From Alphaproteobacteria bacterium (GTDB lineage: Bacteria; Pseudomonadota; Alphaproteobacteria; JANQMY01), in NCBI GenBank assembly GCA_028289425.1, contig JANQPL010000004.1, forward strand, positions 248,001-312,000: DNA of 64,000 bases. Reading direction: 5' to 3'. The position numbers and the translations under genes are program-made. This document shows positions 11,903 to 14,005 of the stretch, one piece after another; position 1 is the first letter of the stretch; every line of letters begins with the position of its first letter. Under the pieces are notes generated by a model. It was not told the DNA's origin and did no database searches. It saw nothing but the letters and a program-made list of their open reading frames with translations.

Positions 11903-12071
11903 CGCCGTTATTGACCTTTTACTGGCCTCAATTTGGAGATCGGTCGAGATTAGCTCTGATGCGCCTTACGCTGAGTTTCTTCTCGCAGAAGATCCCACAT
12001 CCAAATCCAGTCGGACGCGGGGCAGCTGGAGTTAAACCGAAATGCCGGCGTGTTCGGCGAACGCCTGGAAA

Positions 12072-12375
12072 CGGCACGGAACTCACATCCAACGCTATAC
12101 TCAAATGGCAACAAGACCGTGGTGTCGCATGGCACTACATCGCGCCCGGCAAACCTATGCAGAATGGTTTTGTCGAAAGCTTCAATGGCCGGCTACGGGA
12201 TGAATGCCTCAATGAACACCTGTTCTACAGCTATCGGCACGCCAGAAATATCATCGAAGATTGGAGGAACGACTACAACAACGACAGACCACATTCGAGC
12301 ATTGAAGGGCTCACACCAATCGCATTTGCAACCCGGTCCCAACAGGACCATAACCAGAACAGAACTAACTTATAA
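12072..12375 (+). pseudogene. IS3-family transposase (OrfB) C-terminal remnant
   Basis: About 100 residues correspond to the end of an IS3/IS407-group integrase-type transposase: [59 protein letters not shown] and LTPIAF. The last part holds the Glu of the DDE triad. The Asp that normally precedes NGTE is replaced (GNGTE) and everything before 12072 is unrelated, so the N-terminal half and OrfA are gone. A probable right terminal repeat follows at 12390-12401. Confidence 0.82.
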
Positions 12376-12401: not shown

Positions 12402-12466
12402 GTCCCCGTGGTGATACAACCACTCTCCTAACTCTTTGAATTGCCGCGATCTTCTGGGGAAGAAAT

Positions 12467-12486
12467 CGTCTCTCCAATGAGAGACG
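12467..12486. repeat. Perfect 8-bp hairpin next to the tRNA-like remnant
   Basis: CGTCTCTC-CAAT-GAGAGACG. It directly abuts and partly overlaps the degenerate tRNA-Ser 3'-end copy at 12480-12527. It may be a terminator remnant or part of a recombination site. Confidence 0.4.
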
Positions 12487-12527
12487 TGTGGCTGGCGGGC
12501 AGCCACAGATTCGAACTCTCGGTACCC
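12480..12527 (-). repeat. Degenerate duplicate of the tRNA-Ser 3' end (att-like)
   Basis: Aligned without gaps to 13904-13951 (tRNA T-arm, acceptor 3' strand, CCA and 13 nt of downstream flank), it matches at 39 of 48 positions: 17 of 19 in the CCA/flank part and 18 of 19 in the T-arm part, with divergence in the acceptor strand. Same orientation as the tRNA. A direct repeat of a tRNA 3' end is the usual mark of tyrosine-integrase insertion, but no integrase remains. Confidence 0.5.
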
Positions 12528-12721
12528 GTCCCGAATCTAAGCCTTTGAAAAGTCGACGCTATTTCGAGCCATAAAGTCGAAAAATGCCCTCAGAGACAAC
12601 TACTTAGCTCGCTCTCCGGTTATGTCCCCCTTAGTCACTTCCGCCATGTCAAATTGAAGGATGCACTTCTAAGGCGCGTTCTGACATAATACGACTTTAA
12701 AGTCTATCATTGAGCGGGCTG

Positions 12722-13726
12722 ATGGAAAACAAGATCGACACGAATCCGATTGTCAATCAGTTCATCTATGTCACGCCAATTCTCATTGTCTTTCTATTGG
12801 GCATTTGGATGCTCCAGTTGGGAGTCAGTCCGGTTGAAGAATTTGCCCAAGCTGAGCTCGAAGACCACCCGAACGCATCGCTAACGCGCATCACTTCGGG
12901 CCAACGCACATTCCTTTCCGCATACATGCTGCACGTAATCGTCATATTGGGAATATTGGCCGGATGCTATTTCGAGTTTCGGAAATTCGGATTTTGTTTG
13001 GCCACTAGAGCAACTTATTTCGCCGTAATCCTCGCGGCAGCCACTGTAACGGTGGGGCATTTTTCTGGTTTAGTACAGAGGGAGGCATATCCTCTCATTT
13101 CTCAGAAGCACTTCTTCGGCCTCTTCAGAATAGGCGAAGAAGTGAGCGACAAAGTGATAAGCCAGAAACACTTCCAACTAATGCTGGTCTTAAGCGATGT
13201 CATCACAATCATTGTTGCCCTAGTTCTGATAGCGGCATTTCTTACGACAACTGCCTCGCCAAAGCAGAAATTTGACAGGGATTTCCAGATCTCCATCTTT
13301 AGGCTGCAGGCCCTTCGACTGGGTAGATATCTCTATTTTGCTTCCGCCCTCCTTGTGAGCGGCACCATTTTAACTGCCTCATGGATACAATGGCCAGCAC
13401 CGTTGATTCATGAAAACGACGAATATCATCGGTTAGCAAACAGCCTCTCACTCTTCTACGGGCTTTTCTATAGCCTGATGCTAGCCGCTCTCTACATTCC
13501 TGCCTGGGCTTTCATAAGGCATAAATGGACTAACTTTATCGAGACTGTCCCTGAATCTTATGCAACTGGCGGTCAACCGGTGCCCGGTACCACGTTGCCT
13601 GGACTCGAGTTTGGCCTATTCTCAAAACAGCAGTTCACCACAATTCTGGCGGTTCTGGCGCCTTTCCTAGCCGGCGCAGTCGGAAGTCTGTTGGAAGCGC
13701 TGGGCAAAACGCTAGCCGGCACTTGA
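12722..13726 (+). CDS. Orphan polytopic membrane protein, family not recognised
   Basis: About 334 residues. The ATG at 12722 is preferred over an in-frame TTG at 12710; no strong ribosome site is seen for either. Hydrophobic segments lie roughly at residues 14-35, 66-84, 96-113, 153-175, 201-221, 239-258 and 307-326, giving six or seven transmembrane helices; the loop around 125-150 is rich in charged and aromatic residues with SQKHF twice (SQKHFFG, SQKHFQL). No enzyme motif is visible. It is more AT-rich in appearance than core genes and sits alone between the att-like repeat and the tRNA. It is probably cargo of a small integrated element; function unknown. Confidence 0.7.
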   Translation: MENKIDTNPIVNQFIYVTPILIVFLLGIWMLQLGVSPVEEFAQAELEDHPNASLTRITSGQRTFLSAYMLHVIVILGILAGCYFEFRKFGFCLATRATYFAVILAAATVTVGHFSGLVQREAYPLISQKHFFGLFRIGEEVSDKVISQKHFQLMLVLSDVITIIVALVLIAAFLTTTASPKQKFDRDFQISIFRLQALRLGRYLYFASALLVSGTILTASWIQWPAPLIHENDEYHRLANSLSLFYGLFYSLMLAALYIPAWAFIRHKWTNFIETVPESYATGGQPVPGTTLPGLEFGLFSKQQFTTILAVLAPFLAGAVGSLLEALGKTLAGT

Positions 13727-13916
13727 AAGCCATGACTTAAAGCCACCCATGTCTGTATCTATGGGAACCGGAACAAATGTGAACGGAGATATATACTCCG
13801 CATGCAGAGGATTGGCCCGTTTTTGGTCGCCACAACGGTCGCCCTATGTGGACAACCCTTTGAAATTATTATACTATTCTGAAAAATACAAATTGCTCCG
13901 TACAGAGACGAATGGC

Positions 13917-14005
13917 TGGCGGAGAGAGAGGGATTCGAACCCTCGGTACCCAAAGGGCACAACGGTTTTCGAGACCGCCCCGTTCGACCACTCCGGCATC
14001 TCTCC
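13917..14005 (-). tRNA. tRNA-Ser (anticodon CGA)
   Basis: On the minus strand the gene begins GGAGAGATGCCGGAG, with a D-arm, an anticodon stem around CTCGAAA (anticodon CGA at 13969-13971), the long class II variable arm typical of serine tRNA (GTGCCCTTTGGGTAC region), T-arm GAGGGTTCGAATCCCTC, acceptor 3' strand TCTCTCC, discriminator G and an encoded CCA (13917-13919). The acceptor stem pairs 7 of 7. It reads UCG codons. Its 3' end faces the left-hand island, where a degenerate copy lies 1.4 kb away. Confidence 0.95.

Follow-up and report, generated by a model that had tools for sequence, protein, structure and literature searches.

Introduction

Islands at tRNA genes (tDNA islands) are defined in Islander by a regenerated tRNA gene at one end and a displaced, same-orientation 3' fragment of that gene at the other; Islander also demands an integrase gene, and no family of recombinases other than the tyrosine integrases is known to use tRNA genes as its targets (Hudson, Lau and Williams 2014, PMC4383910). 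The 5.4-Mb genome studied here, which we refer to as G000, has what looks like a canonical example on contig C18, where a tRNA-Arg(CCT) gene at 43.2 kb is accompanied by a 3' fragment in the same orientation at 29.5 kb, about 13.7 kb away, with an integrase gene between the two at 32.3 kb, an arrangement which indicates that canonical tDNA islands occur in this genome. The same contig has a further tRNA-Arg fragment at 69.7 kb, in the opposite orientation, and a second integrase gene at 83.2 kb.

The stretch of DNA analysed here, referred to as the window, is 64 kb long (positions 248001-312000 of contig C3 of G000) and contains a far smaller insert of this type. Like the Islander islands and the island on C18, it has an intact tRNA gene at one end and a same-orientation displaced fragment at the other; unlike them it lacks an integrase, and it spans 1.4 kb with a single gene, the C18 island being ten times larger. 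With integrase-less islands, whether decayed or mobilised in trans, it shares att-like repeats around cargo without a recombinase, but it differs from these in that our searches of G000 found no helper element bearing a matching att site. The insert is best classed as an integrase-less or decayed tDNA island and not as an autonomous one. It is ordinary in kind, with a scar of a well-known type, and unusual in its very small size and in having no integrase. Thus a 1.4-kb single-gene insert carries the scar of a large island, and belongs to a class that is discarded by scans requiring an integrase; its biological consequence is probably modest.

The original prediction, made from the sequence of the window, was that a duplicated tRNA-Ser 3' end, a signature of site-specific integration, brackets a small element and that the left 12-14 kb are probably an island. 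The scar and the small element stood up to the analysis below, as did the accessory character of the left side, which extends over about 45 kb; an island bounded at the tRNA did not.

A tRNA 3' end repeated on either side of one gene

The features of the locus, in window coordinates, are as follows.

11911-12375, plus strand: C-terminal fragment of an IS3-family transposase OrfB (Pfam rve_3), outside the insert
12402-12456, unstranded: outer flank of 55 bp just outside the left copy, single-copy in G000 and in the sister genome G001
12467-12486, minus strand: terminator-like hairpin, CGTCTCTC-ATTG-GAGAGACG with a T-rich tail
12480-12527, minus strand: left repeat copy, displaced 3' tRNA fragment with flank GCCAGCCACACGTC
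12480-13903, unstranded: inserted unit of 1,424 bp, GC about 0.48, present in G000 and absent from G001
12722-13726, plus strand: sole gene of the insert, predicted to encode a 334-aa helical membrane protein
13904-13951, minus strand: right repeat copy, tRNA 3' half from variable arm to CCA with 13 bp downstream, attL/attR-like
13917-14005, minus strand: tRNA-Ser (anticodon CGA; ARAGORN, Rfam RF00005), putative target gene with its 3' end as attachment site
Expected empty-site junction: tRNA joined to GCCACACGTC-TCTCATTGG

Positions 12480-12527 and 13904-13951 are identical at 39 of 48 bases, ungapped, in the same orientation and at a spacing of 1424, exactly as had been predicted. The runner-up match of the tRNA 48-mer inside the 64-kb window reaches 26/48 and the best match in 120 kb of upstream chromosome 29/48, which is also the maximum in 40 simulated 64-kb sequences drawn from a dinucleotide model. 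The sole tRNA gene in the window, tRNA-Ser(CGA), is intact (57.5 bits against Rfam RF00005). Homology between the two copies is confined to the 3' 48 bp, the left copy being a 3' half only with a sharp edge, and no traces of the 5' half of the tRNA were found there.

Mismatches between the copies cluster in the T-arm and acceptor strand of the left copy, within which a perfect 8-bp palindrome, TGTGGCTG-CCCGC-CAGCCACA, can be read. This palindrome may derive from the core site of the element, or it may have arisen by a template-switch mutation once the copy had been displaced and freed from selection. The pattern would fit a crossover in the T-arm with a later change in the left copy that resembles a template switch or, alternatively, a crossover at GCCAGCCA, at the end of the tRNA. 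The hairpin at 12467-12486 begins in the flank of the left copy and straddles its outer edge, and was probably the original terminator of tRNA-Ser(CGA); a weaker hairpin is present in G001.

An empty site in the sister genome

The sole same-genus genome compared, G001, is an alphaproteobacterial metagenome-assembled genome (MAG) with about 10% contamination. It shares with G000 the tRNA-Ser(CGA) gene and its right flank (73% identity over 2.3 kb), including a neighbouring gene whose 172-aa product is 78% identical in the two genomes; a scan with this conserved neighbour returned as its sole match MAG contig JANQMY010000028.1 (alphaproteobacterium PL25b_bin.64), at a position corresponding to that of the gene on contig C252 of G001. 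Neither the insert protein nor the insert DNA was found in G001.

The two genomes differ at the 3' end of the tRNA in a way that locates the insertion. In G001 the CCA of the tRNA is followed by GCCACACGTC, and the same sequence follows the CCA in the left copy of G000; at the intact tRNA of G000 the CCA is followed instead by GCCATTCGTC. The left copy and the tRNA of G001 have exactly the same flank, GCCAGCCACACGTC, from which that of the right copy differs. In G001, a homologue of the 55-bp outer flank (12402-12456; E about 1e-8) lies about 170 bp past the tRNA, and an insert of 130-140 bp, G001's own, separates the two. Because the left copy shares the G001 flank and adjoins the single-copy outer flank, it occupies the original place of the DNA downstream of the tRNA; and position 12480 is the end of the insertion, because the 55 bp outside the left copy are single-copy and homologous to DNA that G001 has downstream of its tRNA. 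The order seen in G001, of tRNA, left-copy flank and then the outer-flank homologue, thus indicates that 12480-13903 was inserted at the 3' end of the tRNA gene. This empty site comes from a single relative, whose flank also contains the small private insert. The displaced copy is identifiable on independent grounds, since its flank matches the sister genome, and the locus is in this respect a clean small example.

The duplicate is private to G000, with a second 3' end in none of 29 other tRNA-Ser loci (28 from other genera and that of G001, with flank covered up to about 1.5 kb). This argues against a conserved decayed tRNA gene, and hence against the possibility, raised with the original prediction, that the duplicate is an independent tRNA gene decaying at the same place in many species.

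The gene carried by the insert

The repeat does enclose one AT-richer gene, as had been proposed: the insert has a GC content of 0.480, against 0.537 leftward and 0.583 rightward. The open reading frame at 12722-13726 is intact and tightly framed, with roughly 190 and 180 bp between it and the repeat copies on either side. The 334-aa product matched no family in Pfam, PADLOC or PHROGs; the PADLOC result speaks to known defence families and would be compatible with an undescribed system. No phage-related gene was detected in the insert, either as a PHROG match or as a match to phage or viral contigs, and no close relative of the protein was found in plasmid, phage, viral or genome contigs at the sensitivity used. 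Structure prediction by AlphaFold without an alignment gave a pLDDT of 50, a model of too low quality for a fold search.

On sequence similarity, the protein appears to belong to a patchy, uncharacterised alphaproteobacterial family. Its distant homologues, 17-23% identical across the full protein, are scattered in other families of the class. A sequence search gave matches in 7 of 385 class genomes and a profile search in 10 of 385, with G000 counted and some matches being weak; an alignment of four distant homologues was too divergent for a contig scan. Most of the homologues stand alone, and some are richer in AT than the DNA around them or have IS3-type transposase genes next to them. One in genome G326 (L051:7978-9177) is solitary and AT-rich, with a GC content of 0.50 in a locus of 0.67, and another in G154 (L111:9803-10741) is solitary and adjoins IS3-type transposase genes. 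No adjacent tRNA genes and no comparable flanking repeats were found at the homologues elsewhere, where direct repeats were at chance level only. The family resembles cargo picked up horizontally from time to time, and not the core of an element.

Origin of the insert

At this locus we observe an integration-type scar, consisting of the repeat, an intact tRNA, a gene absent in the sister genome and an ancestral flank on the left copy, with no integrase. The 1,424-bp unit very probably integrated at the 3' end of tRNA-Ser(CGA) and is now a non-autonomous or decayed tDNA-targeted island. The likeliest agent is a tyrosine integrase, either supplied in trans or lost after the event, which would have recombined an attP carrying the 3' end of a tRNA with the chromosomal tRNA-Ser(CGA) gene. 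The tRNA would thereby have been regenerated whole, its 5' part chromosomal and its flank now the element-derived GCCATTCGTC, and the old 3' end, flank and terminator displaced to 12467-12527. Either the interior of a larger island was later deleted, or a small unit of cargo was integrated in trans; in our judgement the former is the more likely, being the commoner process and the one that would call for fewer assumptions. We infer that the direction of change was gain in G000 and not clean loss in G001.

Several observations count against integration followed by decay or loss of autonomy. The copies are not near-identical, unlike those expected of a fresh insertion. Inside the insert no integrase was detected, whole or fragmentary, its intergenic stretches gave no convincing match to the integrases of the genome, and no att-like partner was found near any of the five PF00589 genes in G000. 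The nearest PF00589 matches on contig C3 lie at 316 and 533 kb, both to the right of the tRNA. The comparison also rests on one sister genome, a MAG with the contamination and the private insert described above. The core of the left copy matched nothing in viral contigs.

The alternative that survives best, which we nevertheless regard as unlikely, is that the unit is a genuine 1.4-kb non-autonomous element composed of a gene and an att site and mobilised by the integrase of another element. The intact gene fits closely between the two copies, no remains of other genes were recognised around it, and some of the distant homologues, such as that in G326, are likewise solitary AT-rich genes. Against this, neither G000 nor G001 contains a second copy of the unit or of its ends, the protein is without relatives in the plasmid, phage, viral and genome contigs searched, and its homologues elsewhere have neither comparable flanking repeats nor adjacent tRNA genes. 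It is improbable that the insert is a minimal cargo unit, an analogue of a MITE among tDNA islands that depends entirely on the integrases of other elements for its movement.

A single tRNA with the flank of the left copy, as in G001, would also be expected if the insert were ancestral to the genus and had been precisely excised from G001. Such excision would have required an integrase that is now absent from the insert, and gain accords better with the AT-richness of the insert and the patchy occurrence of homologues, so that we consider this history highly improbable. Tandem duplication of the tRNA and decay of one copy, with no integration involved, is a process from which partial 3' copies beside tRNA genes can arise, and a 3'-end duplicate does occur 104 bp after tRNA-Ser(TGA); for the present locus, however, its probability is very small. 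The left copy is the 3' half only and ends sharply; it is this copy, and not the intact tRNA, that has the G001-type flank and borders on the ancestral downstream DNA; the copies are separated by a unique foreign gene; and no equivalent duplicate occurs at the tRNA-Ser loci compared from other genera.

The accessory region to the left

That the tRNA is instead the right end of a 12-14-kb island on its left, a view favoured by the lower GC of that side and its general lack of orthologous DNA in G001, is barely credible given the ancestral tRNA-downstream DNA between the left copy and that region, the size of the low-GC region (about 45 kb, not 12-14) and the failure of the searches that the original prediction had called for, which recovered no third repeat copy in 132 kb to the left and reported no PF00589 match on contig C3 left of 316 kb.

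Other expectations for this side were borne out. Lower GC, at 0.49-0.56, extends for about 45 kb, from about 216 to 260 kb of contig C3 (0.50-0.55 over roughly 45 kb in the composition check that had been proposed), and the comparison with a relative that had likewise been suggested found no orthologous DNA in G001 for the 12.5 kb preceding the left copy, apart from the 55-bp flank and short weak matches; of the 20 kb before the window, only about 2 kb is orthologous in G001, at 68%. Accessory catabolism had been predicted here, and Pfam confirms catabolic enzymes in the part of the region within the window; in the remainder of the region, before the window (L037 and L038), aldolase, dehydrogenase and TonB-receptor-like genes are read by eye, from translations only. 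The predicted IS scar is also present, as the transposase fragment at 11911-12375. Since the low-GC region ends at this fragment, its edge would more plausibly reflect IS activity or homologous recombination than an att site. The left region is accessory, and its edge merely adjoins tRNA-Ser(CGA).

Other observations at tRNA ends

The tRNA-Ser(TGA) gene at about 266.6 kb of contig C5 of G000 (L121:1436-1640) has its own 3' end repeated 104 bp on, with an inverted T-arm-like sequence between the copies. Several tRNAs have, from 9-10 nt past their CCA, sequences that open with GGTCCATTC or GGTCCATAC and that we take to resemble the termini of an IS481-type element; most of these sequences then carry repeated ACATGGTTTACA or ACATAGGTAACA motifs. 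They occur at tRNA-Ser genes with anticodons TGA (L121, after the duplicated 3' end), GGA (L129) and GCT (L130), at tRNA-Arg genes with anticodons CCG (L119) and CCT (L132), and at tRNA-Ser(CGA) in G001 (L003:1599-1740). We found no obvious precedent for such sequences at tRNA ends in the literature searched. In 1.38 Mb sampled, few of the motif sites were at tRNAs or tRNA fragments, and most of the sampled tRNAs were without the motif. The uninserted site corresponding to the tRNA-Ser(CGA) case in G001 is provided by the left copy of G000.
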